DNA of 64,000 bases, from positions 682,001-746,000 of the forward strand of contig NZ_CP129884.1 in NCBI RefSeq assembly GCF_030490285.1, read 5' to 3'. This stretch comes from Methylomonas montana. GTDB lineage: Bacteria > Pseudomonadota > Gammaproteobacteria > Methylococcales > Methylomonadaceae. A program made the translations under genes and the position numbers. Shown here one piece after another: positions 4,702 through 44,764 of the stretch (positions are counted from its first letter, which is position 1; every line of letters begins with the position of its first letter). Below the pieces are notes generated by a model. The model saw only the letters and a list, made by a program, of their open reading frames with translations, was not told the DNA's origin and did no database searches.

Positions 4702-4809
4702 TCACAAATTAGAACTTGATAAGATATCCACAAACTCTCTTTCCGCGCGAATCGTAAACGCCATTACCAGCTCGTCATCTTTTTGCAATGTCAACGGCAT
4801 CGGCAGGCG
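4702..4809 (-). pseudogene. Decayed 3' fragment of a mutarotase-like gene
   Basis: Read on the minus strand, 4809-4737 encodes a peptide containing PLTLQKDDELVMAFTIRAER. This is almost identical to the C-terminus of the mutarotase-like protein at 13495-14280 (PLTLQKDEELVMAFTIRAER). At DNA level, 4737-4809 aligns with 13512-13585 at roughly 85-90 percent by eye. Upstream of 4809 the similarity stops, and the C-terminal tail differs. This is a relic, not a functional gene. It lies at the left edge of the glycan island, while the full gene lies at the right edge. Confidence 0.75.
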
Positions 4810-4899
4810 GCCAGAAACCTGGTTTGCGGTGGCAATTTGGTCGGCCCAAACAGCAGTCTGCGACCAGACGGGTATGGCAATGGCAGGCATGGCATGCGT

Positions 4900-5955
4900 C
4901 TAATGCGGATTGTTTAACACGTTTGAATTTACCGACGAGTCGTGGGAATGGCTGTTCAAGACATTTGCCAAACCTTTTTGGATCGAGGTTTTGGCTTCGA
5001 AAGCGAGCGCTAATTTTGCGCGGTTTACTGAGTACTCTGGGCCGCCCAGCAGCACCGAACCGTACACTTGGTCGGCAGCATAAGATTTCCAGCGCGGTCG
5101 CATTGCGTTACCGGAGAGGTTGCGGCTAAACCAGCGTAATTCCTGAGCCAAGCGCACAACTGCAATAGGTAAGGGTACGCATTTCGCCTCATGGCCGGTG
5201 ATGGCTGCATAGGCCGAAGTTAGAGCCTGCAAGTGGGTCGGCGGGCCGGCAATGTTTAGCGTGTCCGAGCCAATGGCGCGGGATGTGCCGGCCCTGACGA
5301 TGGCTTCGATTAAATCGTCGACGTACACCAGCGAGAACGGTCGGGGCGAACGGCCCGCCGTGTACAGGTATTTGCCGCTAAGCATCGACACCAGCATTGC
5401 GGTAAAGCCGCCATCGCCGGGGCCGTAGACCTGACTGGGCCTAAGTATCACGCTACTAAGACTGTTCGTGGCGGCGTTGGCTATTTCCAGTTCCGCAGCG
5501 GCTTTGCTTTGACCGTAACTGTCTCCGCCGCCTGTCGGGCTGTCCTCGTCGAGTAGCGCTTTGAGGGGGGGCGCATAGGCGCAAACCGAGCTGAGGAAAA
5601 CTAGCCGTTTAACGCCATTCTCGATGCACGCTTGCAACAACACCCGGGTGCCGTAATGATTGACGCGCCATTGTTCCGCCTGTCCACCCTTGCCTGGAAC
5701 GATTGCCGCTAAATGATAGACAACCGAGACATTACGGGTGGCGTCGGCCAAGCAGCGTTGGTTCAAAATATCGCCATATTGGTAGCGAACCCCGGACGGA
5801 GTGACTAGATTCGGACACTGGCGGCCTAGCGCGGTGACGGTATGGCCGTGCTCGACGAGAGAACGGACCAAATGCCTGCCTAAAAATCCTGTGGCGCCGG
5901 TCACTAGTGATGACGGTCCGCCACTGTGCATGCTTGATGGTGAGGCGCTAGCCAT
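4900..5955 (-). CDS. NAD-dependent epimerase/dehydratase (extended SDR)
   Basis: An extended short-chain dehydrogenase of 351 residues, probably acting on a nucleotide-activated or lipid-linked sugar. The nucleotide-binding GATGFLG motif is near residue 20, the DxxD-like strand YQYGDILN follows, and the catalytic YGQSK (YxxxK) lies near residues 145-149, with the serine in the preceding LSSVCAY. It is the last gene of a five-gene minus-strand run and overlaps the upstream radical SAM gene by eight bases. HpnA-like hopanoid epimerases are one possible relative, but nothing here proves the substrate. An internal ATG at 5931 is an alternative start. Confidence 0.8.
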   Translation of the reverse strand: MASASPSSMHSGGPSSLVTGATGFLGRHLVRSLVEHGHTVTALGRQCPNLVTPSGVRYQYGDILNQRCLADATRNVSVVYHLAAIVPGKGGQAEQWRVNHYGTRVLLQACIENGVKRLVFLSSVCAYAPPLKALLDEDSPTGGGDSYGQSKAAAELEIANAATNSLSSVILRPSQVYGPGDGGFTAMLVSMLSGKYLYTAGRSPRPFSLVYVDDLIEAIVRAGTSRAIGSDTLNIAGPPTHLQALTSAYAAITGHEAKCVPLPIAVVRLAQELRWFSRNLSGNAMRPRWKSYAADQVYGSVLLGGPEYSVNRAKLALAFEAKTSIQKGLANVLNSHSHDSSVNSNVLNNPH

Positions 5956-7447
5956 TGGCTCGCACCGCGTTCAAAATCGCGTACGCAGCCCCCTTGGGGT
6001 ATTTCAGAATCAAGCGGGCGTTATAGGCGAGTTCGCTTAGCGATGTCAGCGACCTGAGCGCAAAAATGAGTAAGCGTTTGCGCAGATAAGTCCGGTAAAT
6101 CGACTGAATTACATCGGGATCGAAATCGCCGGTTTTAACCTGGTTGTACGCAGTTTCTATAGTGCCGTTATGTAAGCCTTGCGCAGCGATCTCATCGTAA
6201 ACATCGGTGCCGGGGATCGGAATCAAGGGTTGCAGCATAGGCACGACGCCGAACCGCCAATAGCGCTCAAGCGCGTAGGCAACAGTGGCTTTAATATCGC
6301 TCAAGGTTTCGCCCGGAAAGCCAATGATGTAAAAAGCATGCAGCCTTAAACCGACCTCCTGACAATAGTGCATCATTTCATCGACCTTTTTAAGATCCAG
6401 GCGTTTACGCACAATGTCATCCACAACGCGCTGGACGCCTGACTCGATCGCCACTGTCAGAAACTGACAGCCGGATTTTTTGGCGCGGCGGACGCGCTCC
6501 AGAGTCCAGGCGTCGCCTCTGACGCCGTTCGGGGTGTCCCACTTGATGCGCGGATTGAACGTCAGCATGAAGTCGACAATCTGGTCGTAGCGCTCGGTAT
6601 CGTGTACTAGATTGTCGTCCTCGAAATGAATGAAATCGACGCCGTAGTCGTCTACCAAGTGCTGGATATGTTTGCGGGCATAGGCGGGAGAATGGGCCCG
6701 AAACTTATAACCCATTGTGGTTTGAATCGAACAAAACACACATTTATGCGGGCAGCCCCGGCTGGTCAACATGCTGATAGGGCGCTGGCCCCATTCGCGA
6801 AATCGCGGTGATAGACCGCGCCGGGCCAACGCGAAGTAACTTTCCATGTCGACGAGGTCGTATGCCGGGAAGGGTAGTTTATCCAGCGGATCGGCGAAAC
6901 TGACCGGCGCTCGCGGGTTGGGGCGCAACAGGTCCAAGTCGTCACGGTCTGCCGCAACACCTGGTATTTGCGGATGGTTTTCACCACGCTGTAAGGCGAT
7001 CAGTAATTGGCTGAGACGTTCTTCGCCCTCGCCGATCACGACATAATCGATGCACGGTCGAGACAGGGCTTCCAGTGGAAAGACCGATACGTGAGGGCCA
7101 CCGAGGATGATGGTCGCGTTTGGTGCTGCTTGCCTAGCCAGATTGGCAAAATGGTAGGCGCGATCAATCTGACTGCTAAACATATTAGATATGCCGATGA
7201 CATCCGGGTTGGCCGAGCGAATTCGCGTTTCGATCTGTGCGTCGGTATCACCGAAAATCCAGTGATCGTCTTCGCGCCGGAACGCGGCGCTCAGGCGAGC
7301 GTCGTAGATTTGGACCGATCCTCGCCATTCGCTTTGTCGAACGTAGGCGGCGATGGACAGCACGCCAAATGGCGGACTCACCGCGGGTCTGGCTTTCATG
7401 CCATCCAGGCGCACGAGTTGATTCGGTACGCAGAGCAGCAGTTTCAT
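5948..7447 (-). CDS. B12-binding-domain radical SAM protein (second of pair)
   Basis: A 499-residue protein with an N-terminal cobalamin-binding-type Rossmann domain (about residues 1-190; PPFGVLSIAAYVR, VIGISNMFSSQ, TIILGGPHVSVFP), then a radical SAM core. The cluster motif is CPHKCVFC with Cys232, Cys236 and Cys239. The core continues with FEDDNLVHD and VAIESGVQR, and the C-terminal part is typical of class B-like enzymes. No clear DxHxxG cobalamin ligand is visible, so cobalamin binding is not certain. Such enzymes methylate unactivated carbons or rearrange lipids and sugars. Within an operon of sugar epimerases and a WecG-type transferase, a sugar or glycolipid substrate is a reasonable inference. 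Confidence 0.85.
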   Translation of the reverse strand: MKLLLCVPNQLVRLDGMKARPAVSPPFGVLSIAAYVRQSEWRGSVQIYDARLSAAFRREDDHWIFGDTDAQIETRIRSANPDVIGISNMFSSQIDRAYHFANLARQAAPNATIILGGPHVSVFPLEALSRPCIDYVVIGEGEERLSQLLIALQRGENHPQIPGVAADRDDLDLLRPNPRAPVSFADPLDKLPFPAYDLVDMESYFALARRGLSPRFREWGQRPISMLTSRGCPHKCVFCSIQTTMGYKFRAHSPAYARKHIQHLVDDYGVDFIHFEDDNLVHDTERYDQIVDFMLTFNPRIKWDTPNGVRGDAWTLERVRRAKKSGCQFLTVAIESGVQRVVDDIVRKRLDLKKVDEMMHYCQEVGLRLHAFYIIGFPGETLSDIKATVAYALERYWRFGVVPMLQPLIPIPGTDVYDEIAAQGLHNGTIETAYNQVKTGDFDPDVIQSIYRTYLRKRLLIFALRSLTSLSELAYNARLILKYPKGAAYAILNAVRANG

Positions 7448-7495
7448 TTTTCGGCCCTTAGCTAAGTGTCATTGCCAGAGAGTTTTGCGATGCCA

Positions 7496-9052
7496 TCACC
7501 AGCGCATCAAGCGGGCGGTGTCGGTTTTGGCAAGCGTAACCGAATCGCCGGACAGCAATTGCGCGGCGCGGCGAAAGCGCTTGTACAAACCGCGCAGCCC
7601 TTGGCCTTGTAACAGACGTAGCAAATACCGGGCTTGCCGCTGCAGCCACTTGGGCTCGATAAATTTGCGTCGTAGCCAGCGGGTATGTGCAGCGGTGGTA
7701 AAACGTTCCAAATATTCGCCGGAGATATCTTGATAAGTGATTACGCTCATATTGCTACCATCGTACTCTTCCCACTTTACTGGCCGAATTCGACCTTCCG
7801 CGAGCAGTTGCTTGTGGAAATCCGTACCTGGGCAGGGCGTAGCCATGCTGAATTGCACCGAATCAACATCCAATTCACAGGCATATTCAAACGTGTTCAG
7901 CATCGATGCCATCCTCTCGCCGGTCAAGCCAAACACCACCGTCATATGGGTCTTGATGCCCAGCTTTCCGGCTTTATCGATAAGGCCATGCAAACGTTGT
8001 ACCTTGAGCGGTTTTTTGATGGCGTTCAATATATCGGGATCAGCGCTGTCCAAGCCAAACTTCAAACCTACACAGCCGGCGTCCGCCATGCATTCCAGCA
8101 TTTCGTCGTTCAGTGCGATAGCGTCGCCCATTGCCGACCAGGCGATAGCCAGCTTGCGCCGTTTTATCTCGGCACAAAGCAGGCGCACATGTTGTTTGTT
8201 TGAGGTGAAGTTGTCGTCGTCGAAGTAGATTTCTTTGACGCCGAATTCTTCGATCAGCAGCAACATCTCGTCGACCACTCGGTCGGCACTGAAGTAGCGC
8301 TGTGGCTCGCCTCGGTACAGGATTTGTACCCAGGCGCAAAAGTCGCAACGATACGGACAGCCACGGCTGGTGTGCATATAAGCCGTAGGCGTATGCTGAA
8401 ACATGCCGTCGTAGTATGCGCTAATCGAAGGCTCGGCATTTCGAGGGAATAGGCGGCGCGCGGGTGGCGGTAGTTGGTCGAGAGGGTGGATAAGTGCCGC
8501 CGGCGGGTTGAGGCGAGACTGACCGTCATCCGTTCGATAGGCCAATCCCGCTACAGCCTGCAATGGCTTGTCAGCGCTTAGGGCTTGTATTAGGGCCAGG
8601 CAGATTAGCTCGTATTCGCCGGCCAGCACAAAATCGATATGAGGGTGTTGATCGAGAATTTCGGTCGCAAACACGCTGACGTGAGCGCCGGCTAGAATGA
8701 TTTTCGCGCCGGTTGCGGCTTTGAGCGCGAGTGAGAACCGCAATACATCGTCGATGACGGCGGTATTCGGCTCAAGCAGAATAATGGCAGGATTTGCTGC
8801 GAGGGCGTCCCGCAAAAACATATCTTCGGTAAGATTCAAAGGCACACCGTCGATTACATCAACCTTGAAGCCGTCGCGTTCGAGTAAGGCGGCGCTGTAC
8901 GCTAGGAAAAATGGGAAGGTGGTGTAACGCGGTTTATCGGTAGGCCGTTTTAACAGTGTCAGCGGAAACCGCATGCCGGAACCAAGCATGTAACGTTCCA
9001 GGCCGTTGCTTAGCGGGCGGCGAAAGGCCGGATTGGCAATCAGTATATTCAT
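7496..9052 (-). CDS. B12-binding-domain radical SAM protein (first of pair)
   Basis: A 518-residue paralogue-like partner of the gene downstream, with the same layout. The N-terminal B12-type domain contains FFLAYSAALLERDGF, IILLEPNTAV and KIILAGAHVSVFA. The radical SAM core follows, with motif CPYRCDFC (Cys232, Cys236, Cys239, the same positions as in its neighbour) and YFDDDNFTSNK. It overlaps the WecG-type gene by four bases (ATGA), which argues for co-translation. The N-terminus has an unusual insert (residues about 8-40, ending KPRYTTFPF) not seen in the partner, so the two enzymes probably have different substrates. Product unknown. Confidence 0.85.
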   Translation of the reverse strand: MNILIANPAFRRPLSNGLERYMLGSGMRFPLTLLKRPTDKPRYTTFPFFLAYSAALLERDGFKVDVIDGVPLNLTEDMFLRDALAANPAIILLEPNTAVIDDVLRFSLALKAATGAKIILAGAHVSVFATEILDQHPHIDFVLAGEYELICLALIQALSADKPLQAVAGLAYRTDDGQSRLNPPAALIHPLDQLPPPARRLFPRNAEPSISAYYDGMFQHTPTAYMHTSRGCPYRCDFCAWVQILYRGEPQRYFSADRVVDEMLLLIEEFGVKEIYFDDDNFTSNKQHVRLLCAEIKRRKLAIAWSAMGDAIALNDEMLECMADAGCVGLKFGLDSADPDILNAIKKPLKVQRLHGLIDKAGKLGIKTHMTVVFGLTGERMASMLNTFEYACELDVDSVQFSMATPCPGTDFHKQLLAEGRIRPVKWEEYDGSNMSVITYQDISGEYLERFTTAAHTRWLRRKFIEPKWLQRQARYLLRLLQGQGLRGLYKRFRRAAQLLSGDSVTLAKTDTARLMRW

Positions 9053-9804
9053 TGCTCGACCTCATGTTTCAGGAAAAACCGATTTTTCAATAGATGTCCG
9101 GCGAACTCGATGGCGCCTGGGTATATTCGGGATCGATAATGAGGCTCGTGGATGAATCGGTGTACCCATTCGATGCCGATCCTGGAGGTCCAAGCTGGTG
9201 CGCGTGCCTTGCAGCCGGCGTAGACGGCCAAGGTACCGCCGCCGATATGCCAGCATAGCGCCCCTTTGCAAACTTCCCGGGCATTCAGCAGAATTTGTTC
9301 CGACTTGGGGGTGCCAGCGCCTACTAGAACCGCGTCTATCCCGGAGTATTGCGTCAATACAGGCTTGTACTCGTCGGGGTCCATGAAGCCGTGATAGGCG
9401 GCAACAACCTGCCAAGCACCTTTGCGGGCATTTATGGCGTCTGCCGCTAGTTGCGCTTGGCGGGGTGTGCCACCTATAAGCAAGGCGTTTACCCTAGGTT
9501 CCGGCCAAGTTAATGCACAATCAAACAAAGCTGTCGCTACGACACGTGGCGGTGCCTGGCCAAACAAGCAGCGAAATGCCAAGGTAATCCCCACGCCGTC
9601 CAAGCAAACAAGATCGCATGCTTGCATAAAAGAGCGGACGCAAGGATCGCGTTCGACATAATTATAGACATGCGGATTTAGAAACCCTACCAGTTTGCCT
9701 CTGCTGGCTGGGTTCCGCATGGATTGGCGGAGGCAATCATCTAAGCCGGACAAGGTCCCGGTGTGAATGAATAGCGGACCGAGCTTATACCGGAGTTTAG
9801 GCAT
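9049..9804 (-). CDS. WecG/TagA/CpsF family glycosyltransferase
   Basis: A 251-residue GT26 family enzyme. Members transfer N-acetylmannosamine(uronic acid), glucose or similar residues to a lipid-linked acceptor at the inner membrane in exopolysaccharide, teichoic acid or enterobacterial common antigen synthesis. Signatures are FLNPHVYNYVERDP, CDLVCLDGVGI, ALLIGGTPRQAQ, VLVGAGTPKSEQ, and the C-terminal APAWTSRIGIEWVHRFIHEPHYRSR. All are family hallmarks, so the family call is firm while donor and acceptor are unknown. It overlaps the epimerase upstream by eight bases and the radical SAM gene downstream by four. Confidence 0.92.
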   Translation of the reverse strand: MPKLRYKLGPLFIHTGTLSGLDDCLRQSMRNPASRGKLVGFLNPHVYNYVERDPCVRSFMQACDLVCLDGVGITLAFRCLFGQAPPRVVATALFDCALTWPEPRVNALLIGGTPRQAQLAADAINARKGAWQVVAAYHGFMDPDEYKPVLTQYSGIDAVLVGAGTPKSEQILLNAREVCKGALCWHIGGGTLAVYAGCKARAPAWTSRIGIEWVHRFIHEPHYRSRIYPGAIEFAGHLLKNRFFLKHEVEQ

Positions 9805-10804
9805 TGAGGTTTTGCGGGAAGTTATCGTCTATCGGGCGGCGGATTTGCAGGTCCGCGACTGCCCGGTAATGGTTTAGAATGCGTGCCAGACCACTTTCTA
9901 GGCCGATATTGGGGCGCCACCCCGTATCTTCGATGGCTTTGGCGATGTTGGGTACCTTATCGAAGGCCTCGATATAATGTTTGCCGTAAAGGCTCACCGG
10001 GTCCACGTGTCTTATTGCTGAGCGCGATGCGCACAATTCTTTGATTAAATGTGCCAGCTCTTCGATGGGGACGATATTGTCAGGGTGGCCGAGGTTGTAA
10101 ATATTATTGGTTTTTCCTTTGGCCTGTACCTGGATGATGCCATCGACCAGGTCGGATACATGGCAAAAAGAGCGGATTTGTTTGCCGTTTCCAAATACCT
10201 GCAGATCACGCCCAGCTAACGCCGCCTCGAAGAATTTGGGGATGACGAAACCTATAGTGGAGCTTTGCCATTCCCCCATGGCGTTAAACGGGCGCACGAT
10301 CCGTAGCTGGAAATCCCCTTCCATCGCCAGGTTCAACAACACATGCTCTACCGTCAACTTTGCCAGTGCGTACTCCATCCGGGCACCACGCTTGCAAGGC
10401 ACAATCTGCTCGGATGACTCCAGGTGCCGACCGTCTCTACCGTACACTTCCGAGGAGGAGACATACAACAGGCGGGATTTGGAATAAGTGGCAATTTTTG
10501 CGACTTTTTCGGCAAGATCAAGAATATTGCCAGCGATCCTGCCGCTTTTACCTAATATGCCGAGGGAACCCACGGGACTGGCGAGATGGTAAATGTCGTC
10601 AAACTCGGCAAGGCTGTCTGGCAAGGATTCAACGTCCTGGATGGTGATATTCAGACGACCTATCAGGTCTGTGTAGTCCAGTTTGGTGGAACTGAGGTTA
10701 TCGACGACAGTAATCACGCTTGCCGGCTCTAACGCCAATAAGCGTTTGCAAAGATGATATCCTATAAACCCAAGGCCTCCGGTCACCAGAGTTTGCTTTG
10801 CCAT
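9797..10804 (-). CDS. NAD-dependent nucleotide-sugar epimerase/decarboxylase
   Basis: An extended SDR of 335 residues, resembling UDP-glucuronate decarboxylases and UDP-glucose 4-epimerases. It has GGLGFIG at residues 9-15, YHLASPVG, the catalytic SSSEVYG and YALAK (YxxxK), IVRPFNAMGE, and the substrate-loop FGNGKQIRSFCHVSDLVDGI. It is the first gene of the minus-strand run, so it probably supplies the activated sugar for the WecG-type transferase encoded next. A GGGGTG ribosome site precedes the ATG. The exact activity (epimerase, dehydratase or decarboxylase) cannot be told from sequence alone. Confidence 0.85.
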   Translation of the reverse strand: MAKQTLVTGGLGFIGYHLCKRLLALEPASVITVVDNLSSTKLDYTDLIGRLNITIQDVESLPDSLAEFDDIYHLASPVGSLGILGKSGRIAGNILDLAEKVAKIATYSKSRLLYVSSSEVYGRDGRHLESSEQIVPCKRGARMEYALAKLTVEHVLLNLAMEGDFQLRIVRPFNAMGEWQSSTIGFVIPKFFEAALAGRDLQVFGNGKQIRSFCHVSDLVDGIIQVQAKGKTNNIYNLGHPDNIVPIEELAHLIKELCASRSAIRHVDPVSLYGKHYIEAFDKVPNIAKAIEDTGWRPNIGLESGLARILNHYRAVADLQIRRPIDDNFPQNLNA

Positions 10805-11097: not shown

Positions 11098-11763
11098 TTA
11101 GCGGCAATCTACGATCCGTTTGACCCGAAACGCTTCGGCATAGGGTTTACAGATTTGCGCGCCGCGCAGACTGGCCAGCGAGCGCAGGGTTTCAGGCGAC
11201 CGATGCCCGCGAACCTGTGACGCATAAAGGGCGTAAGCGGCCAATTTTCGCTCGATTTGTATTTCGCGAAAGTAACTTGGTTCATTGTTGGGCGCGGAAT
11301 GAAGCCAGACTAGACTGTCGGGTTGCTCGAATATTAGTACATTCGGCACAAACCAGTTGGTGTCGTGTGGTCGGGTTGCTACGATTCCTGCATCGTAGAC
11401 CGCTCTATGATCCTGGTTATAGGATGGTTCGGGCATTAGTACAGTGCTTGGTTTGAGCTGGTTTATGGTCAATTCCATGGTCAGGATAAGATTCTGCATC
11501 CGGTAGTGGTTTACTGGATTGTCGAGCACGTCCCAGTGGAAGCCGAGCATGTTGGCGGCCCGCTCCAACTCTTGAATCCTTTCGATACGAGAAACATAAG
11601 GCCGGTCTTCCGCGCCGAAATGCAGTACAAAGCAGTCGGGTCCTAAAAATGAAAAGCAGCCTAGCACCTCATCATCGATGTGGGGGGAAAATATCAGGGT
11701 GTTATGATGCATTGGCATTTTGGCATTGTATGCGAAGCCCCGGAAAATCATATCCCTATGCAA
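11098..11763 (-). CDS. PIG-L family deacetylase
   Basis: A 221-residue LmbE/PIG-L zinc hydrolase. Family members remove acetyl groups from N-acetylglucosamine linked to lipids, thiols or antibiotics. The zinc motif SPHIDDE is at residues 26-32 (usual form PHPDDE), and the QDHRAVYDAG motif near residue 125 carries the third metal ligand. In this position it probably deacetylates an amino sugar made by the island. The start is uncertain: ATGs at 11763, 11718 and 11712 all precede the core and none has a strong ribosome site. Its 5' end faces the glycosyltransferase remnant on the plus strand. Confidence 0.8.
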   Translation of the reverse strand: MHRDMIFRGFAYNAKMPMHHNTLIFSPHIDDEVLGCFSFLGPDCFVLHFGAEDRPYVSRIERIQELERAANMLGFHWDVLDNPVNHYRMQNLILTMELTINQLKPSTVLMPEPSYNQDHRAVYDAGIVATRPHDTNWFVPNVLIFEQPDSLVWLHSAPNNEPSYFREIQIERKLAAYALYASQVRGHRSPETLRSLASLRGAQICKPYAEAFRVKRIVDCR

Positions 11764-11810
11764 AATCCAGAGCGCTTAAATTGTGCCGATATGCAAAAGT
11801 AGGGTATTTC

Positions 11811-12149
11811 ATGAGTCAGACTGAGTTTTTGGTGATGCCGTCAGTATGGATAAAAACATTTGGCATCGTGATTGTGGAAGCATTTGCTCATGGCTTGCCG
11901 GTCATTGCCAGCCGACTGGGCGCAATGGCTGAAATTATCGATGACGGCGTCACTGGGTTGCATTTTACCTCTGGCGATGCCAACGACTTAACGGCCAAAG
12001 TCGGTTGGGCAATTGCCAATCCTGAACGCATGGCGGAAATGGGGCTTGCCGCGCGTCGTGTCTATGAGCTGAAGTATACCGAGCACGAGAGCTACCGTCA
12101 GCTCATGCAAATATACCGCGAGGCGCTTGCGGGGCTATCTAAAATGTAA
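11811..12149 (+). pseudogene. Truncated GT4 glycosyltransferase, C-terminal remnant
   Basis: The 112-residue frame starting at 11811 matches only the last third of a GT4 glycosyltransferase: FLVMPSVW, the donor-binding EAFAHGLPVIASRLG, EIIDDGVTGLHF, and the C-terminal KYTEHESYRQLMQIYREAL. The N-terminal acceptor domain and the start of the donor domain are absent, and no homologous sequence is seen upstream, where the PIG-L gene runs on the opposite strand. It cannot be an active transferase by itself. It is the only plus-strand coding sequence inside the island and shows that the locus has been rearranged. Confidence 0.75.
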
Positions 12150-12173: not shown

Positions 12174-13355
12174 CTAAGAGCGTTTCAGGCTGGCAATAAT
12201 GCCTTCGGCATATCGATTCGCCATGCTTTCAATAGAATACTGCCGTGAGCTTGCCAAGGCACCGTTGCTCAGCCGGCGAAGTTCGGATTTTGTTTTCAGC
12301 AAAGAAATAATGGCATTTGCGTAAGCCCGAGAATCGTTGGCTATCAATAGCCCGTTCACGCCGTCGTCCAGATATTCGATTTCAGGGCTGTGAATGGGAA
12401 TGTCGGTGGTTATTAGCGGCAAGCCGGCGGTGAATGCATCCAGAATTGCCAGTCCGACTAGTCCTGGACAAAGGAATGCTTTTGCCAGGCGGAAGCATAA
12501 GGCTTTTTCCTTGGCAAAGCATGGGCCGAGGTAGTGAATTCGATGGTCGCTGGCGGCGGCCCGTGAAACCAAGTCTCGTCTGACGCCATCGCCCAATACC
12601 AGTAAATGAAAATCGGGACGGTCGGCCTGGATCAATTTCACCGCCTCGAACAGAAATTCCAAATGCTTTTCATCGTACAATCCGCCGCAGAATAGGCCGA
12701 TCGGAGCGCCAATGGAGATGCCCAGCCGCTTAGCGAAATTGTGTAGTTCGGCCTCGGTTATCGCAGTTAGCATCGCGCGAAAACCGGCAACATCCACGCT
12801 GTTGTTGAGAACGGTGATTTGCTCGCCGGGTATGCCGTCAAGCAAAAGGTGGTTTCGGGTGCCGGAAGTGTAAGCGAACCACCAATTGCCTGCGCGCGTC
12901 AGTTGTCGTCTGATTCGCTCTTTGAACGATCCAGGATTGGCTCGCAAACTTGGCCACCATACCCAAAAAGCCAAATTGCGGCGTCCCAATAACCCGGCAA
13001 TGGCGATTAGGTAATTCAGAACATGGCCGTTAGCGTTAAGGACAATCACTAGATCGGCGGACAGCGCGCGCCCAAATATCGGCTGATAAAGCACCTTGTC
13101 GCCGAAAAACCAATAGTTTTTGACTTTCAGGCCAATGGATTCAGGCAAATCGACTAAGTCGCGCTTGGCGGACTGCTGCGCATTCGGCGTGCCATAGGCT
13201 ACTTGCAGTTCGATACCAACTTGTTGTAAACGTTGATAGAGTAGTTCATAAAGCTTCACGCGGTAATGCGGCACCACTGGCTGGACGATCAGAACGCGAG
13301 GGCGGTCGGATTCGGTTTTCGACTCGGCTAAATGGTGGCGACTAAGAAAAGGCAT
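12174..13355 (-). CDS. Glycosyltransferase family 4
   Basis: A 393-residue GT-B fold glycosyltransferase, cytoplasmic or peripheral. The N-terminal acceptor domain starts with RVLIVQPVVPHYRVKLYE. The C-terminal donor domain contains GLFCGGLYDEKHLEFLFEAV, FHLLVLGDG and the EX7E-like region around GLAILDAFTAGLPLITTDIPIHSPEIEY. The usual first Glu of that motif is replaced (LVGLAILDAF), as in some GT4 subgroups. It is a separate transcription unit from the epimerase operon and lies beside the mutarotase-like gene. Donor and acceptor are unknown; a role in the same glycoconjugate is inferred from position only. Confidence 0.85.
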   Translation of the reverse strand: MPFLSRHHLAESKTESDRPRVLIVQPVVPHYRVKLYELLYQRLQQVGIELQVAYGTPNAQQSAKRDLVDLPESIGLKVKNYWFFGDKVLYQPIFGRALSADLVIVLNANGHVLNYLIAIAGLLGRRNLAFWVWWPSLRANPGSFKERIRRQLTRAGNWWFAYTSGTRNHLLLDGIPGEQITVLNNSVDVAGFRAMLTAITEAELHNFAKRLGISIGAPIGLFCGGLYDEKHLEFLFEAVKLIQADRPDFHLLVLGDGVRRDLVSRAAASDHRIHYLGPCFAKEKALCFRLAKAFLCPGLVGLAILDAFTAGLPLITTDIPIHSPEIEYLDDGVNGLLIANDSRAYANAIISLLKTKSELRRLSNGALASSRQYSIESMANRYAEGIIASLKRS

Positions 13356-13494: not shown

Positions 13495-14280
13495 CTAACC
13501 CGCAAAACTTACTCTTTCCGCACGAATCGTAAATGCCATTACCAGCTCTTCGTCCTTTTGCAATGTCAACGGGGTCGGCAAGCCGTCCGGGCCGGGTTGA
13601 TGACCGATAACCGGTTCTATGCAGACATATTCATATTTTTTATCGCTCCAAACTCCAAATACTACGGATAGGTTCTTCGATGACGGCGCAATGTTGCAGC
13701 TAACCCACGCCGAGTAATTGGCAGTGGTGATTTTAACCTCGTCCGATACCGATGCTACGGCATGTTTTTGCAAGCTATCGTGCGGCAGGGCCGCGATGTC
13801 GATCCGAGTCGCCCCTATATCGATAAAACTGTTTGGCGTGATCGAGAAATAGGGATGGAAGCCGGGGCGTATCCAGGCCTCGTCTGATATGGCGCGAATG
13901 GTGGTGGTGACTTTCAGCGTCTTGCTATGTTGTTCTTCGACCTCTTCCCAGTCGGTAATCACGTCGACATTGCCCCAGTTGTGTTCGGTGGGCGATGACA
14001 GGTTTTTTTGGTGAGGCAGCTTATTGTCGCAAACGGTTGTTCTGTATTCACCGTGCTTGATGCTAAACGGCGGCGTGAGTTCTTCAAAATTGGGTATGCA
14101 AAGATAGACCCCGCCGCGCGAGCCGCCGTCTTCTTTGTTATGCAGGGGTTCGATAATATCGATATCGTCCAGTTGCCAAGTGATTAATGTGCCTGTATCA
14201 GTGAAATTCATGTTTAAAAAAAGTGGATTAGATAAATTGAAGCGTATGCCGGGAACGATCTGTTCGTAAAAGCCGGGCAA
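13495..14280 (-). CDS. Aldose 1-epimerase (galactose mutarotase)-like protein
   Basis: A 261-residue protein with the general shape of the galactose-mutarotase superfamily: LITWQLDDIDIIEP near the N-terminus, RGGVYLCIPNF, the PGFHPYFSI histidine motif near residue 140, and YVCIEPVIGHQP near residue 225 carrying the likely catalytic Glu. Such proteins interconvert sugar anomers or hexose-6-phosphates. The open frame begins at a TTG (14280) and an ATG lies at 14211; neither has a strong ribosome site. A diverged fragment of the 3' end is present at 4737-4809, so this gene marks one edge of the island. Confidence 0.7.
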   Translation of the reverse strand: MPGFYEQIVPGIRFNLSNPLFLNMNFTDTGTLITWQLDDIDIIEPLHNKEDGGSRGGVYLCIPNFEELTPPFSIKHGEYRTTVCDNKLPHQKNLSSPTEHNWGNVDVITDWEEVEEQHSKTLKVTTTIRAISDEAWIRPGFHPYFSITPNSFIDIGATRIDIAALPHDSLQKHAVASVSDEVKITTANYSAWVSCNIAPSSKNLSVVFGVWSDKKYEYVCIEPVIGHQPGPDGLPTPLTLQKDEELVMAFTIRAERVSFAG

Positions 14281-14355
14281 AATATTATGGTCGGAATAAG
14301 GCCTATCGGCTGTATACGTTCGTTACGGATCAGCGATTTTATCAGAACTTAGCCA

Positions 14356-14381
14356 GTAGCCTGGATGTCGCGTCGCAGCAT
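14356..14381. repeat. GTAGCCTGGATG-type dispersed repeat, right copy
   Basis: The GTAGCCTGGATG core at 14356-14367 is the same as at 4620-4631. After it the two copies remain loosely similar (CGCAGCATCTTGGGT against GCGAAATCCTGGGT). Confidence 0.45.
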
Positions 14382-14450
14382 CTTGGGTTTTGGGCTGCAA
14401 TTTCACGTTTGAACAAAGCTGAAAATTTACCGGTCTCGCGCTACACTGGC

Positions 14451-15089
14451 ATGCCTTATTCCGAATCAAACCAGGGAATCAATTTGCTCAACACACCCAT
14501 CACCAGTCATTTCTATGCTTACCTTTCTCGCCTACGTTGGATCAAGCGTTGGGGCTTGAAACGCAACGCGCATGAGGAAAACGTCATGGAGCATAGCTGG
14601 GAAGTGGCGGTGATCGCGCATACCTTGGCGTTGATCAAAAACCGTTATTTCGACGGCCAGGTCGATGCCAATGCCGTGGCCGCCGCCGCGCTGTATCACG
14701 ACATTACCGAAGTCATTACCGGCGATTTGCCGACGCCGATCAAATACCACTCGCCGGCGATACTCGTTGCCTACAAACAGATCGAGCAGCAGGCTGAAAC
14801 CGAATTATTGAATTTGCTGCCCGCTGCGCTCCGTGACGATTTTCGAGCGTTGATTCAGCATGAACAATTGTCGGAGCCGCATCAGCAAATCATCAAGGCG
14901 GCGGACAAGATTTCCGCCTATCTCAAATGTCAGGCCGAGCTGAAGGCCGGCAATAGCGAATTTGAAACCGCCGCCGAGCAACTGGTGAAAAATATTGGCG
15001 AGCTGCAACAGCCGGAAGTGGTTTTTTTCATGCAAACCTTCGTGCCGAGTTGCGGTTTAACGCTCGACGGTTTGATGCAGACTCACTAA
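14451..15089 (+). CDS. yfbR: HD-domain 5'-deoxynucleotidase, YfbR type
   Basis: A metal-dependent phosphohydrolase that dephosphorylates deoxynucleoside 5'-monophosphates. The protein follows E. coli YfbR throughout: SHFYAYLSRLRWIKRWGLKRN, the HD-domain ligands ENVMEHSWEVA and YHDITEVITGDLPTPIKY, ADKISAYLKCQAELKAGN, and the final FMQTFVPSCGLTLD. The start is uncertain. The frame opens at TTG 14409 and has an ATG at 14451. A TTG at 14484 has the best ribosome site (AGGGA, six bases away) and gives the N-terminus closest to E. coli. It is a single gene on the edge of the island. Confidence 0.85.
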   Translation: MPYSESNQGINLLNTPITSHFYAYLSRLRWIKRWGLKRNAHEENVMEHSWEVAVIAHTLALIKNRYFDGQVDANAVAAAALYHDITEVITGDLPTPIKYHSPAILVAYKQIEQQAETELLNLLPAALRDDFRALIQHEQLSEPHQQIIKAADKISAYLKCQAELKAGNSEFETAAEQLVKNIGELQQPEVVFFMQTFVPSCGLTLDGLMQTH

Positions 15090-15202
15090 GGCGCGGATAT
15101 TGCTCGAAATGCTCGGTCCGACGGTCGGTTTCGCGGCGGGGCCGGGTTCGACAATTGCGCTTTCCAAGGTAAGCTGCGCTTCTTTAAGCGGGGAGTAAAG
15201 TC

Positions 15203-15361
15203 ATGGGGCCGTATTATCGTGGTACATCGCAAAGCACCGGTGCATTTTTTGACGCTTTCTATCAGCATCCGATTTTAATGTTGCTGCTGGTGCTGGGCGT
15301 GTCCGGTGCTGCACTATTTCTTTGGAACCGGAAAAGGTCCGGCAAGCAATCGGATTCGTGA
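15203..15361 (+). CDS. Small single-pass membrane protein, 52 residues
   Basis: This short frame has a strong ribosome site (GGGAG, seven bases before the ATG). It encodes a polar N-terminus with two Tyr, then one hydrophobic helix (about residues 24-41, rich in Leu, Val and Gly), then a basic tail (WNRKRSGK). The layout is that of a small inner-membrane protein with a cytoplasmic positive end. No family is recognised. It lies alone between yfbR and a diguanylate cyclase gene. Confidence 0.55.
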   Translation: MGPYYRGTSQSTGAFFDAFYQHPILMLLLVLGVSGAALFLWNRKRSGKQSDS

Positions 15362-15546
15362 GCGCGTGGAGGGGGCGCGGCTGGTTATTGCTGCGCTGTC
15401 CACCGCTAACTTTTCCGAACCCAGTCAAGGCCACGATCGGTTTTGCTAAATGGGGGGCGATACGTTTACCATTGCCCTCAGTGCCCGCGTATCGATACCG
15501 CTAAGCAGGCAGAGCCCCGGATAAACTTACACTAGACGATTGGACC

Positions 15547-17673
15547 ATGTCTGCTAACGATGGAAAAATCGACAGTTTTGTACGACATGGCAATCGGATA
15601 GCCCACTATCTAGTCACGGCCTTCGTGTTGTTGGCTGGCCAATTGTTGCTGCGGCATGTCGAGTGGCAGGGCAGTTCGCAGTTGCACACGCTGATGGAGC
15701 TTGCCGCCACGCTGTTAGCGCTGTTCGTCGGCGCGATGGCGCTGATCCGGTTTTTCAGTCAGCGCGACGACCAGTTTCTATATATTGGCGCCGGCTTTCT
15801 AGGTACCGCATTGCTGGACGGCTATCACGCCGTGGTGACTTACAGTTACTTTCAGCCTTACATGCCGTCCGGCATGCCGTATTTGGTGCCCTGGAGCTGG
15901 CTGGCGTCGCGGCTGTTTTTAGCGATTCTGATGTTCGTCAGTTGGTTGCTGTGGTTTAAGCATCGCGGCGATATGACTTCCGCCCCCAAGACCAAGACCG
16001 TCTTCACCGCCACGGCGCTAGCGACGCTGTGTTTGTTTCTGTTTTTCTTGGTTGTGCCGCTGCCGCGATATTCTTTCGAAGAGGTGATCGTGCATCGTCC
16101 CTTCGAACTGGTTCCCGCCATGTTCTTATTGCTGGCGCTGATCGGCTATTTGTATAAGGGCGACTGGCGACACGATTCATTCGATCACTGGCTGGTGTTG
16201 TCCTTGATAGTCGGTTTGGCTACGCAGACGGCGTTTATGCCTTTTTCCGATCAACTCTACGATACCGAATTCAACCTGGCCCATTTGTTGAAAAAGACCA
16301 GTTACCTGTTGGTGCTGATCGGGCTACTGATCAGTCTCTATCAAACCTACCAGCAATTACGGGCGGAAACCGAAAAAAGAAGGCGAGGTGAACTTTTGCT
16401 GCTGGAACGGGCGGAGGCGTTGACCAAGAGCGAGAGCTGGTTTCGGGCGGTGGCCGATTACACTCACGATTGGGAGTATTGGGTGGCGCCGGACGGCAAG
16501 ATGCTCTATGTATCGCCGGCGTGCGAGCGCATCACCGGTTATGCGGCTCAGGCGTTCATGAGCGGGCAAGTCAAGATTGAGCAGCTCCTGTCGCCTCTCG
16601 AGCGCATGGCGGTTGTCCATCACCTCAGAGAAATCAATACGCTCGAAACCACCGAACTTGATTTTCGCATCGTCACCCAAGCAGGCGAGGAGCGCTGGAT
16701 TGGTCATGTTTGCCAGCCCATTTACGACAAGAGCGGCCAGTTTCTTGGGCGGCGGGCCAGCAACCGGGATATCACCGAGCGCAAATTGGCCGAGCTGCAG
16801 ACGCTGGCGCTGACGACTGCTTTGCATTTTTCGCCGGCCATGGTGGTTATCACCGACGCCAGCGGCAACATCGAATACGTTAATCCTAAATTCGCCGAGG
16901 TGACCGGCTTTCCGGCCGCGGAAGCTTTGGGCAAGAATCCCAGAATCTTAAAATCCGGACAGCATCCGGACGATTTTTACGCGCAGATGTGGGCTACCTT
17001 GACGACCGGCGCCACCTGGACCGGCGAGCTTATTAATAAACGCCGCGACGGCGAACTGTACTGGGAATCGGCATCCATTTCGCCAATTCTGGATGAAGAA
17101 GGCGTCATCAAACGCTATGTGGCGGTCAAACAGGAAATCACCGAGAAAAAGAAATTGGAGGAAACCCTCTACCGGCAGGCTAACTTCGATGCGTTGACCG
17201 GTCTGCCTAATCGAAATCTGTTTCACGATAGATTGGAGCTGGCTCTGAAAAAAGCTGCCAGAAGCACCGCCCAGTTGGCGTTGATGATGCTGGATCTGGA
17301 TTATTTCAAAGAAATCAACGACAGCTTCGGCCACGACGCCGGCGATGAACTGCTAAAACAGGCAGCGGAGCGTATGCAAAGCTGTATTCGCGATTTCGAT
17401 ACGGTGGGCAGAATGGGTGGCGACGAATTCATGATTTTGCTGGAGGGTTTTTCGGAAATGCGGATTCCGCAAGAGATCGCCCAACGCCTGTTGGACGAAC
17501 TGGCCAAACCGTTTGTGATATTCGGCCGCGAAGGCCGGGTTTCGGTGAGTATCGGCGTGGCTTTTTCCTCGCCGCAGGCCATGGACAAGGATGCCTTGAA
17601 AAAACAAGCCGACATCGCTTTGTATCAGGCAAAGGAGCATGGCCGTAATCGCGTGGTATTCTTCAAGAGTTAA
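15547..17673 (+). CDS. Diguanylate cyclase with MASE3-like membrane sensor and two PAS domains
   Basis: This 708-residue inner-membrane signalling protein makes c-di-GMP. Residues about 20-275 form a seven- to eight-helix sensor resembling MASE3 (LHTLMELAATLLAL, then FLGTALLDGYHAV). Two PAS domains follow at about 290-415 and 420-540, each ending in an ITER/ITEK motif, then a GGDEF domain with GGDEF at 624-628. An RxxD inhibitory site (RDFD) lies five residues before the signature, so product inhibition is expected. There is no EAL domain. It is not obviously in an operon. The sensed signal is unknown; the PAS sequences carry no diagnostic cofactor residue. Confidence 0.9.
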   Translation: MSANDGKIDSFVRHGNRIAHYLVTAFVLLAGQLLLRHVEWQGSSQLHTLMELAATLLALFVGAMALIRFFSQRDDQFLYIGAGFLGTALLDGYHAVVTYSYFQPYMPSGMPYLVPWSWLASRLFLAILMFVSWLLWFKHRGDMTSAPKTKTVFTATALATLCLFLFFLVVPLPRYSFEEVIVHRPFELVPAMFLLLALIGYLYKGDWRHDSFDHWLVLSLIVGLATQTAFMPFSDQLYDTEFNLAHLLKKTSYLLVLIGLLISLYQTYQQLRAETEKRRRGELLLLERAEALTKSESWFRAVADYTHDWEYWVAPDGKMLYVSPACERITGYAAQAFMSGQVKIEQLLSPLERMAVVHHLREINTLETTELDFRIVTQAGEERWIGHVCQPIYDKSGQFLGRRASNRDITERKLAELQTLALTTALHFSPAMVVITDASGNIEYVNPKFAEVTGFPAAEALGKNPRILKSGQHPDDFYAQMWATLTTGATWTGELINKRRDGELYWESASISPILDEEGVIKRYVAVKQEITEKKKLEETLYRQANFDALTGLPNRNLFHDRLELALKKAARSTAQLALMMLDLDYFKEINDSFGHDAGDELLKQAAERMQSCIRDFDTVGRMGGDEFMILLEGFSEMRIPQEIAQRLLDELAKPFVIFGREGRVSVSIGVAFSSPQAMDKDALKKQADIALYQAKEHGRNRVVFFKS

Positions 17674-17723
17674 CGCAGGCATGGCGCCGGAAAAACCGGG
17701 GACAGACAGTCTTGGGAAACACC

Positions 17724-17729
17724 TATAAT
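17724..17729 (+). promoter_or_regulatory. Candidate -10 box of the following gene
   Basis: A perfect TATAAT lies 32 bases before the ATG at 17762, with only a weak GACAGA hexamer 17 bp upstream at 17701-17706. Confidence 0.4.
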
Positions 17730-17761
17730 TCTCGGATAATCAAAATAGCGGAGGTTGATCC

Positions 17762-18076
17762 ATGAAAACCAAGTCAGTTGTTTTTGCGTTGCTGATGGCC
17801 TGTGCGCCGCTGGCTCAGGGCAGTGATAGAATTGCCCAAGGTTTGCCTTTTTTCGACATCGTACTGTATCGGCCATTGGGCCTGATCGCTACCGTCGCCG
17901 GCTCCGCGATTTTTGCGGCCACCTCGCCGTTGACGGCTTTTGCCAATATTTCGCCGCCGCACGATGCATTTGAAATTGCCGCCGGGATGCTGGTCGTCGC
18001 CCCCGCTAAATTTACCTTCGATAGACCGCTTGGCGTGATGTTTCCCGATGAGGATGGAGAATACCGCCGACATTGA
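17762..18076 (+). CDS. Secreted small protein, conserved hypothetical
   Basis: A 104-residue protein with a cleavable signal peptide (MKTKSVVFALLMACAPLAQGS). After it come DIVLYRPLGLIATVAGSAIFAATSPL, a hydrophobic Gly/Ala segment, and then APAKFTFDRPLG. This RPLG...FTFxRPLG pattern belongs to a family common in proteobacteria and sometimes labelled 'multidrug transporter' without evidence; the protein is far too small for that. A GGAGG ribosome site precedes the ATG by seven bases. Function unknown, probably envelope-associated. Confidence 0.65.
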   Translation: MKTKSVVFALLMACAPLAQGSDRIAQGLPFFDIVLYRPLGLIATVAGSAIFAATSPLTAFANISPPHDAFEIAAGMLVVAPAKFTFDRPLGVMFPDEDGEYRRH

Positions 18077-18277
18077 CGGTGGATAAGGTGTCGCGAGCCG
18101 TCGCGTTAACGCATGGCATCGAGCAGCCGCTATGCGTTACAATGCCGCCATGAGTTCCACGGAGGCAATACAGCATGAATGCGACACCTTTCGATACGCT
18201 GAATTCGCGCACCTGATTTAATTGCCGCTTTTTGCCGGCACCGTTTTTCCCCTTCAATCCTAACCTGCGAGCACACC

Positions 18278-40232: not shown

Positions 40233-40487
40233 ATGATTAGCAACGCAATGAATAGTGCAAGCAGTATGATCGCTCATGCACAGCAAAAAACCGCCACCGC
40301 CGCGCAAACGCTAGCCAAACTGCCGATGCAAGAGCAAGAGGTGGGTGGTTCCAAGGATGTGAGCCCCGCTGATCCTTTCAAGCCGGTGTTGAGTTTGAAA
40401 GAAGCTGAGTTTGAGACGATGGCTGCCACCAAAGTCATTAAATCCGAGCAAGAAAGAGTCGGCTCTATCCTCGATGCCCTAGCTTAA
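40233..40487 (+). CDS. Small soluble protein of unknown function
   Basis: An 84-residue protein with an excellent ribosome site (GGAGG, seven bases before ATG). The N-terminal half is an Ala-, Gln- and Thr-rich helix (SASSMIAHAQQKTATAAQTLAKL). The C-terminal half is charged (LKEAEFETMAATKVIKSEQERVGSILDAL) and likely helical. No signal peptide or family is recognised. Its stop overlaps the convergent radical SAM gene by four bases. Confidence 0.6.
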   Translation: MISNAMNSASSMIAHAQQKTATAAQTLAKLPMQEQEVGGSKDVSPADPFKPVLSLKEAEFETMAATKVIKSEQERVGSILDALA

Positions 40488-41335
40488 CTAGCGACGCTGA
40501 CATCATAGCCCAAGGCCTTGATGTCAGCTGCAAATGCATTCATCTCCTCAAGACTCATTTTTTCCAGTTTTCCTGCTTCGGGTTGGAATGACTGTCTCGC
40601 GATGCTGTAAAGCATGATTTGTTGCAGTGCTATATCGCTGTCCCGCACTTCCCGCAAAAGCGCCAAATAAGCTTGTTTTTCGCTGTCCGACCATGCTTGT
40701 CCATAATGCAACATGCAGGTTTGCAATTTGGTTGGACAGAGACTGGCCGCGAGCTTTAAATGCGCCAGCAGTTTTTGCTGGCTTTGCCCGGTGTTGTTGA
40801 CTAGCTTGCGGCCCTGTTCTGTAGCGCTGTCCAGCTTGAACCATAATTCGCCGTGGTAGCGAGCCAATTCCGTTAAGCCCGCTTGAACCGTTGTTTGATG
40901 CAACAAGCTGCCGTTGCTGATCAATACGAATTTGCTGGCCGGGAACACTCCCGATTCCGTGGCGATCTCGCCAATTAATCTGACGGCTTTATCGAAGTCT
41001 TTAAGGCTGGTCGGCTCGCCGTTGCCGGAAATGGCGATGTCTTTGATAACGCGCTGGTGAATTTCGACGTTGAATTGCTCGAAAAAGTCGCCGTGCCGCA
41101 CGTAATCGAGAAAGAAGCGCAGTTCTTGTTCCAGTAAGGCAAAATCCATTTCCGGCGCATTGCCGCGTTGTAACTCAGGCACTTGGCAATAAATACAACG
41201 CCAGTTGCAGGCGTTATTCGGATTGAAATTAATGCCTATCGATAAGCCGCCGGCACGGCGGGAAATGACCGGGTAAACATATTTCAGGCCGGCGATATCG
41301 CGGTCGTGATTGGTGGTATTGAGGGTTTGGGTCAC
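40484..41335 (-). CDS. Radical SAM protein downstream of the fhc operon
   Basis: A 283-residue radical SAM enzyme with cluster motif CNWRCIYC (Cys43, Cys47, Cys50), followed by the usual core strands: DIAISGNGEPTS (GGE-like motif), FVLISNGSLL, and LWFKLDSATEQG. The YPVISRRAGGLSIGINFNPNNACNW start is characteristic of a group with the PS/RRLGxSLGIN pattern. It lies 50 bases downstream of fhcC on the same strand, with a hairpin in between. A role in tetrahydromethanopterin or methanofuran-analogue chemistry is possible, but this is inferred only from position. Confidence 0.8.
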   Translation of the reverse strand: MTQTLNTTNHDRDIAGLKYVYPVISRRAGGLSIGINFNPNNACNWRCIYCQVPELQRGNAPEMDFALLEQELRFFLDYVRHGDFFEQFNVEIHQRVIKDIAISGNGEPTSLKDFDKAVRLIGEIATESGVFPASKFVLISNGSLLHQTTVQAGLTELARYHGELWFKLDSATEQGRKLVNNTGQSQQKLLAHLKLAASLCPTKLQTCMLHYGQAWSDSEKQAYLALLREVRDSDIALQQIMLYSIARQSFQPEAGKLEKMSLEEMNAFAADIKALGYDVSVAS

Positions 41336-41345
41336 TTGAGCAGGG

Positions 41346-41377
41346 CATACAAACTGAGGTGTGTCTCAGTCTGTATG
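41346..41377 (-). other. Intercistronic hairpin between fhcC and the radical SAM gene
   Basis: CATACA pairs with TGTATG, and CTGAG with CTCAG, separated by a 2x2 internal loop and closed by GTGTGT. There is no U-run on the minus strand. It may attenuate or stabilise the upstream fhc mRNA rather than terminate fully. Confidence 0.5.
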
Positions 41378-41385
41378 GCAATTTC

Positions 41386-42201
41386 TTAGATTCGAACCAG
41401 TACTTCGCCCCGCCCAGTCTCGGCCATATCGCCGCCGTATCTACGTACTCGATTAAGCGTCACGCTGCTATCGGCGAAGCGAGAGTCCAAGGATTTAAAG
41501 GATGCGAACAGCATCGGCAAAAACGCCAAGGTATGGGAGCCGCAGTCGTTGAAGGTCGCGGACAGTTGCGGCTGATTCCACAGCAGCAAGGTGCCTCGGC
41601 GCATCGCATAGCCTAAGTAACGGCCGGTGCTGCCCATTACCGCGATAGTGCCTGCTACCATCCGCGAACCGCAATAATCGCCGGCGTTGCCTTCGATCAG
41701 AATTTGACCGCGGCGCATGTGGTCGCCGGCGCGCTGGCCGACATTGCCTTTCACCAGCACAGTGCCGCCTTTCATGCCTTGCTTATTGCCGGGCAGGGCG
41801 CCGCCGAGGAAGTCGCCGGCATTGCCTTCGATTTGAATCAGGCCGTTTTTCATTTCGCAGGCGGCGTAGAGACCGACGTCTCCGATGACGCTGATTGTGC
41901 CGGCCTTCATTTGCATGCCCAGATAAGCGCCGGCATCGCCTTGGACGCTGATGCTGCCGCCGTTCAGTTCCTTGCCGATGTAGTCCAGCTTGTCGGTGCT
42001 GGCGGCAATGGCGATATCCTGAGTATTGCTACCGGTGATGTAAAACAATTGATCGACGCGCAGTTTGCGTTTGCCGCATTGCAGTTCGATAGCGGCGATT
42101 TCGTTCAGGGTCAAGCCCTCTAGTTTTTGGCAAACCAGCGGCGACATATCGACGCGTTGAGCGGGCGGCGTCTCGGTCAGAGTGAATGTCAATGTGGTCA
42201 T
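41386..42201 (-). CDS. fhcC: Formyltransferase/hydrolase complex subunit C
   Basis: The 271-residue FhcC belongs to the complex that takes formyl from formyl-tetrahydromethanopterin and releases formate in methylotrophs. It is homologous to FwdC/FmdC of archaeal formylmethanofuran dehydrogenase and to the glutamate synthase C-terminal domain. It is a right-handed beta-helix with repeated G-xx-G-xxx-G turns (GDAGAYLGMQMKAG, GDVGLYAACEMKNG, GNAGDFLGGALPG, GNVGQRAGDHMRRG, GNAGDYCGSRMVAG, GSTGRYLGYAMRRG). It overlaps fhcD by four bases. Confidence 0.95.
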   Translation of the reverse strand: MTTLTFTLTETPPAQRVDMSPLVCQKLEGLTLNEIAAIELQCGKRKLRVDQLFYITGSNTQDIAIAASTDKLDYIGKELNGGSISVQGDAGAYLGMQMKAGTISVIGDVGLYAACEMKNGLIQIEGNAGDFLGGALPGNKQGMKGGTVLVKGNVGQRAGDHMRRGQILIEGNAGDYCGSRMVAGTIAVMGSTGRYLGYAMRRGTLLLWNQPQLSATFNDCGSHTLAFLPMLFASFKSLDSRFADSSVTLNRVRRYGGDMAETGRGEVLVRI

Positions 42202-44755: not shown

Positions 44756-44764
44756 GTTTTGATC

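Follow-up and report, generated by a model that had tools for sequence, protein, structure and literature searches.

In the synthesis of hopanoid cyclitol ethers, the step carried out by the radical S-adenosylmethionine (SAM) enzyme HpnJ is a ring contraction. HpnI, HpnK and HpnJ act in that order on bacteriohopanetetrol (BHT), which is converted to BHT-N-acetylglucosamine (BHT-GlcNAc), deacetylated and finally turned by HpnJ into the cyclitol ether, as set out in PMC12583986. AprD4, according to PMC5461906, is a radical SAM diol dehydratase that acts on paromamine with the partner reductase AprD3. For the glycosyltransferase TagA, PMC6493773 provides the residues used for comparison below, namely Asp65, Thr37 and the arginines of a C-terminal appendage. 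Here we describe a gene cassette of Methylomonas montana that appears to combine related elements. It lies in a stretch of 64,000 nucleotides (contig NZ_CP129884.1, positions 682,001 to 746,000), called the window, to which coordinates refer unless another locus is named. The cassette recurs with the same gene order in very distant bacteria, and its radical SAM protein rSAM1 belongs to a sister lineage of HpnJ.

A gene cassette shared by distant bacteria

The cassette is encoded on the minus strand of the window. It runs from a PIG-L-type de-N-acetylase gene (11098..11763), through genes for Epi1, a UDP-glucuronate decarboxylase-like short-chain dehydrogenase/reductase (SDR; 9797..10804), the glycosyltransferase family 26 (GT26) enzyme WecG (9049..9804), the HpnJ-like radical SAM protein rSAM1 (7496..9052) and the B12-binding radical SAM protein rSAM2 (5948..7447), to a gene for another extended SDR, Epi2 (4900..5955). 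The first-pass annotation had described a five-gene operon from Epi1 to Epi2. Its five minus-strand open reading frames (ORFs) agree with the ORF list, and re-measurement gave the same spacing, with three overlaps (8, 4 and 8 bases) and a single gap of 48 bases. The unit is nevertheless not one of five genes, since the PIG-L gene also belongs to it, and rSAM2 and Epi2 are absent from one related locus. Judging from the alignment of cassette members, the true start of PIG-L is probably an ATG inside the ORF.

A full-length relative of rSAM1 (54% identity, tblastn) was found on a plasmid of Eleftheria terrae, where the annotated run reads PIG-L, NAD(P)-dependent oxidoreductase, WecB/TagA/CpsF, radical SAM, cobalamin-dependent protein, epimerase and two glycosyltransferases of family 4 (GT4). 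Every gene of this run has a counterpart in the window, one GT4 gene only as a remnant. The order PIG-L, Epi1, WecG, rSAM1, rSAM2, Epi2 is common to the window, the E. terrae plasmid (locus L003) and three contigs of metagenome-assembled genomes (MAGs; L051, L052 and L055), the record titles of which include Acidimicrobiaceae and Terriglobia. This shared order in the window and four other loci is far beyond chance. Across the six proteins and four loci, identity to the window is 36–64%, and that of rSAM2 is 57–64%. The L051 MAG is titled Acidimicrobiaceae but has the isolate name Acidobacteriota, and it is of the same class as the L055 genome.

L051 and L055 have an additional GT4-like gene between rSAM1 and rSAM2, and a UDP-sugar dehydrogenase gene adjoins PIG-L in both. 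L003 and L052 have GT4a after Epi2. In the window, GT4a is a 3′ remnant on the plus strand (11781..12134). It aligns with residues 269–386 of its 389-residue E. terrae counterpart at 59% identity and 131.6 bits, the second-best match in the genome reaching 51.4 bits. The minus-strand gene GT4b (12174..13355; PF13692, 78.3 bits) encodes a protein 54% identical to the GT4b beside the E. terrae cassette. The GT4 pair lies at opposite ends of the cassette in the window and in E. terrae.

A sixth locus, L063 (genome G814), has only PIG-L, Epi1, WecG and rSAM1. It is flanked by a pnp-like gene and, farther off at its other end, by truB- and ribF-like genes (names assigned by eye). Orthologs of Epi2 and rSAM2 were not found in the L063 stretch, although rSAM2 could lie elsewhere in the G814 genome. 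Because L063 has only these four genes, they look like the core of the cassette, and rSAM2 with Epi2 looks like an optional module; rSAM1 is found in all six loci. Since the L063 cassette has no GT4 gene, the core in the window may still work without an intact GT4a.

A search of contigs with rSAM2 returned eight loci, of which three (L051, L052 and L055) have the whole six-gene order, while five have rSAM2 relatives without WecG or PIG-L matches (L053, 54% identity; L054, 51%; L056, 36%; L057, 35%; L058, 37%). The genes thus keep together in distant bacteria, but relatives of rSAM2 (51–54%, L053 and L054) also occur without the others, which in part fits the refuting case named at first pass, that of homologues with other neighbours. 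In the corresponding contig search with only the window rSAM1 as query, none of 12 stretches could be confirmed. In genome G1660 (L065), a 39% identical relative of rSAM1 occurs with other SDRs and a GT4 (L065:7445–11939) and no WecG or PIG-L match, an arrangement that may show an older context of rSAM1. Another pair of B12-type radical SAM proteins was seen at L056:4669–8687 (36% identical to rSAM2 and 28% to rSAM1), amid SDR- and glycosyltransferase-like genes and without WecG or PIG-L matches.

Sequence features and kinship of the encoded proteins

A 50-row tree places the rSAM1 clade as the sister of that containing HpnJ (support 96/89) and separate from the BchE, HpnR and rSAM2 rows, as expected from shared ancestry of rSAM1 and HpnJ. 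Bootstrap values had not settled in this tree, one row (L017, 833 residues) was dropped, rows L016 and L020 were named BchE and HpnR by NCBIfam, and HpnJ is represented by a single reference from L066, which scores 799.3 bits on TIGR03471 (cut-off 577.6). On the same HpnJ model, rSAM1 stays below the cut-off in the window (224.2 bits), E. terrae (183.9 bits) and L063 (207.9 bits). Among solved structures AprD4 ranks first for rSAM1, by sequence and by fold, and it does so for rSAM2 as well; on the AprD4 model NF033070 (cut-off 500), however, rSAM1 and rSAM2 reach just 92.5 and 64.9 bits. Both predicted models have the B12-radical-SAM architecture (rSAM1: predicted local distance difference test (pLDDT) 70.3 from 4 sequences; rSAM2, with AlphaFold: pLDDT 81.6 from 8 sequences). 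The predicted folds cannot decide the reaction, since AprD4, TsrM, CysS and OxsB tie as fold matches of rSAM1 and AprD4 is also first for rSAM2.

Both proteins have the CxxxCxxC motif beginning at Cys232 and a B12-type domain, as had been noted at first pass: PF02310 scores 77.2 bits in rSAM2 and 38.1 in rSAM1 (cut-off 32.1), and PF04055 is also matched by both (60.6 bits in rSAM2). Among the cassette loci the PF02310 signal is weaker in rSAM1 (31–54 bits) than in rSAM2 (69–85 bits). The motif is present in all members, and PF02310 exceeds its cut-off in five of five rSAM2 and five of six rSAM1 proteins, that of L063 scoring 31.0; the L066 HpnJ itself scores just 17.3. The two radical SAM proteins are not a close pair, rSAM1 grouping with HpnJ and rSAM2 falling elsewhere in the tree, and rSAM2 looks optional. 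The best NCBIfam model of rSAM2, the Sden_1168 P-methyltransferase NF038361, is matched at 207.5 bits, below its cut-off of 575, and none of ring contraction, deoxygenation and C-methylation is favoured for this protein. For rSAM1 the candidate reactions would be, from more to less likely, ring contraction, deoxygenation and C-methylation. The C-methylation proposed earlier is thus just one of several options: by tree HpnJ is the nearest characterised relative, and AprD4 is the first-ranked structure, although methylases score nearly as well by fold.

The WecG-family assignment made at first pass is upheld by PF03808 (102.6 bits, cut-off 27.4), and the GT26 superfamily model TIGR00696 is narrowly passed (70.4 bits, cut-off 69). 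The cassette WecG shares with TagA and WecG of linkage-unit synthesis the GT26 family, the catalytic Asp and the arginines near the C terminus: DGxG and W..R...EP..R.R, present in all six members, correspond to TagA Asp65 and the appendage arginines, one of the three arginines sitting one position off TagA R221 in the hidden Markov model alignment. Unlike in those enzymes, Thr37 is replaced, the column being Phe or Tyr in six of six, and the equivalog models of TarA and WecG are matched at 62.9 and 61.2 bits, short of their cut-offs of 350 and 323. Epi1 is closest in the PDB to the UDP-glucuronate decarboxylase (UXS)/ArnA group, with human-type UXS1 as best relative (166 bits), and the SDR Tyr/Lys (EYxxxK) and the motif SSSEVYG are intact in all six members. 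It differs in having Lys at the Arg of the UXS1 RKPDI motif, again in all six, an Arg with an active-site role in UXS, and in scoring 103 bits on the UDP-xylose synthase/ArnA-type model NF008872 (cut-off 294). TGxxGFxG and YGxSK are present in Epi2 in five of five members, and its best NCBIfam models, OleD and HpnA, are both below cut-off. The two proteins called sugar epimerases at first are both extended SDRs (PF01370, 129.3 bits for Epi1 and 134.7 bits for Epi2), but an epimerase role is putative. The PIG-L protein scores 36.7 bits on PF02585 (cut-off 28.2) and has the metal motif PHxDDE/NQDHRAV in all six members, from which deacetylase activity is predicted. Among the NCBIfam matches listed, none of the five operon proteins reaches an equivalog cut-off.

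Insertion, spread and rarity of the cassette

The distance from dapD to the match in the gene at 13495–14280 is 8.9 kb in the window, compared with 642–809 bases in four of five same-genus genomes; in the fifth (L072) no match was found beyond dapD. In L072, a repeated stretch past dapD (about 13700–14493) resembles, by eye, an insertion-sequence transposase. The insertion in the window is bordered by a direct repeat with a left copy of 88 bp (4737..4824) and a right copy of 87 bp (13512..13598), the latter falling in the 3′-terminal part of gene 13495–14280. The copies are identical at 67 of 78 bases in the ungapped part, with a block score of 113, whereas 500 shuffles reached at most 41 and 287 other window pairs at most 51. 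The left copy is a diverged duplicate of the 3′-terminal sequence of this right-hand gene, which is the pattern that flanking DNA of a donor would leave and an apparent recombination footprint. No integrase was recognised at the cassette, and GC content gave no foreign signal (operon 54.5%, window 53.6%). Protein identities do not track host taxonomy: E. terrae is nearest to the Terriglobia MAG in six of six proteins, and the window is nearest to L051 or L055 in five of six, its rSAM1 being slightly nearer to that of E. terrae. A horizontally moving block is the best reading of the cassette. Farther along, the window has a second break in colinearity with its congeners (14220–18103), with ORFs that by eye resemble HD-hydrolase and PAS/GGDEF proteins.

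The cassette is also rare. In rSAM1-profile searches of genomes, E 1e-90 was passed by 3 of 345 genomes in the class of G498 (G498, G500 and G814), 1 of 349 in the class of G499 (G499), 1 of 369 in the class of the window host (the host) and 2 of 296 in the phylum to which G814 belongs (G814 itself and, as a more distant match, G1660), in genome draws that overlap one another. The top non-self match of the window rSAM1 scored 158.3 bits among 101 genomes, the host included, and 251.3 bits among 398 genomes of the host phylum; the profile searches and the 398-genome search scored the best 3–5 candidates per genome, whereas the 101-genome search was not so limited. The host itself is probably a methylotroph, since ORFs resembling, by eye, formylmethanofuran dehydrogenase and related one-carbon genes are present at about 40484–46039.

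Proposed pathway and its alternatives

Observed directly are the genes of the cassette and the order that they keep in distant hosts, the version with four genes, the insertion, the preserved motifs and the rSAM1–HpnJ kinship; from these we infer a reaction, an acceptor and a product. The core of four genes fits a sequence in which an amino sugar is transferred, de-N-acetylated and modified by a radical enzyme, with an additional SDR for the donor. The cassette may therefore make a glycan with a modified amino sugar, carried on a membrane lipid, with the same three-part logic as HpnI–HpnK–HpnJ; by this analogy we favour the reading tentatively, at a little short of an even chance. Epi1 would prepare an unusual UDP-sugar donor, and WecG, with its TagA-type base and membrane appendage, would move the sugar onto a lipid-diphosphate-linked N-acetylhexosamine, likeliest GlcNAc-PP-polyprenol, a lipid acceptor being suggested by GT26 biology. 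The PIG-L enzyme would then remove an N-acetyl group and so expose a free amine, and rSAM1 would act on the free-amine sugar, most likely by an HpnJ-like ring contraction or an AprD4-like loss of a hydroxyl. In the larger version, which includes the window, rSAM2 and Epi2 may make a second radical or redox change and GT4 enzymes may extend the glycan. The UDP-sugar dehydrogenase gene adjoining the cassette in L051 and L055 also speaks for this reading. A radical-modified lipid-linked sugar, as suggested by the first-pass annotation, is thus the best fit. Quite unlikely in its full detail is a four- to eight-gene block, spread between phyla, for a polyprenyl-diphosphate-linked cell-surface glycan in which rSAM1 contracts a glucosamine ring to a carbocyclic aminocyclopentitol that rSAM2 alters again. 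As to the donor, the UDP-GlcNAc 2-epimerase family is above cut-off in four of five carriers but not in G500, which weakly disfavours UDP-N-acetylmannosamine as obligatory donor of WecG; an NDP-sugar dehydrogenase is above cut-off in five of five carriers but is uninformative, since 13 of 14 control genomes have one as well.

The main rival is a secreted small molecule, a soluble and exported metabolite of aminoglycoside, nucleoside or aminocyclitol type, for which GT4 or WecG would join sugars, PIG-L deacetylate, the radical SAM enzymes deoxygenate or contract a ring and the SDRs reduce. Enzymes of similar kinds are found in the tunicamycin gene set; membership in a tunicamycin-like pathway was rejected because Epi1 is far nearer to UXS1 (166 bits) than to 3vps (55.8 bits), which we take to be TunA, and this weighs against a soluble product. 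Patchy distribution and insertion as a block would suit a metabolite cluster. In favour, too, are a VOC-family gene that adjoins the E. terrae set, MFS-like ORFs (by eye) 1.7 kb past the L051 set, and apramycin synthesis, which has a radical SAM enzyme with an SDR partner on an amino sugar (PMC5461906). AprD4/AprD3, which effect C3′ deoxygenation, do resemble the cassette in this pairing of radical SAM enzyme and reductase and in substrate, AprD4 being also the first-ranked structure of rSAM1; on the other hand, rSAM1 is far below the AprD4 cut-off, the cassette has WecG, and no aminoglycoside genes were recognised. Nor was a cyclitol synthase recognised in the cassettes, by annotation or by eye, and the motif of the membrane-associated GT26 appendage is kept in WecG in six of six members. 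We consider a soluble product somewhat unlikely.

It is unlikely, too, that the radical SAM enzymes are C-methylases decorating a repeat unit of an exopolysaccharide or O-antigen, the cassette being a branch module of surface polysaccharide synthesis. B12-binding domains are present, TsrM and CysS are methylases that tie with AprD4 as fold matches of rSAM1, the best model of rSAM2 is a P-methyltransferase, albeit below cut-off, and its relatives in L053, L056 and L057 lie in neighbourhoods that look polysaccharide-like by eye. Yet rSAM1 groups with HpnJ and apart from the rows of the methylase HpnR. Inspection by eye revealed no flippase or polymerase beside the full cassettes, and the L063 cassette adjoins apparent housekeeping genes instead of a polysaccharide locus. 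A hopanoid-modifying cluster for a variant cyclitol ether could be imagined from the sister position of rSAM1 to HpnJ and from the HpnH of the window genome (G000; 549.8 bits), but is very improbable. HpnH is above cut-off in only this one of the four carrier genomes covered, G498, G499 and G500 being MAGs that may be incomplete; the plasmid record of E. terrae lacks it too, the chromosome not having been searched, and no HpnI or HpnK model matches the window genes. Membership in the hopanoid pathway was rejected on the HpnJ score below cut-off and on hpnH in one of four carriers, and since hpnH is missing from three of the four, a hopanoid is an improbable acceptor.

Returning to the favoured amino-sugar glycan on a membrane lipid, the cassette resembles HpnI–HpnK–HpnJ in the succession of sugar transfer, N-deacetylation and radical SAM step, and differs from it in having a GT26 enzyme for HpnI and PIG-L for HpnK, in its additional genes for two SDRs and another radical SAM protein, and in that three of four carrier genomes covered have no HpnH above cut-off. 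No description of the gene set was found among the titles and abstract openings listed from open-licence literature on the set, its enzymes or aminocyclopentitols; the earlier statement that no described pathway has this set agrees with this, as that literature showed no match to a characterised cluster for a hopanoid, an O-antigen or an antibiotic. The cassette is best called an extension of a known logic of transfer, deacetylation and radical modification rather than a new category. It would carry that logic from hopanoid cyclitol ethers to another acceptor, and its four-gene version offers a system for learning what HpnJ-like enzymes do. More broadly, it suggests that very distant bacteria, among them Eleftheria terrae, the source of teixobactin, make a glycan or metabolite not yet described.

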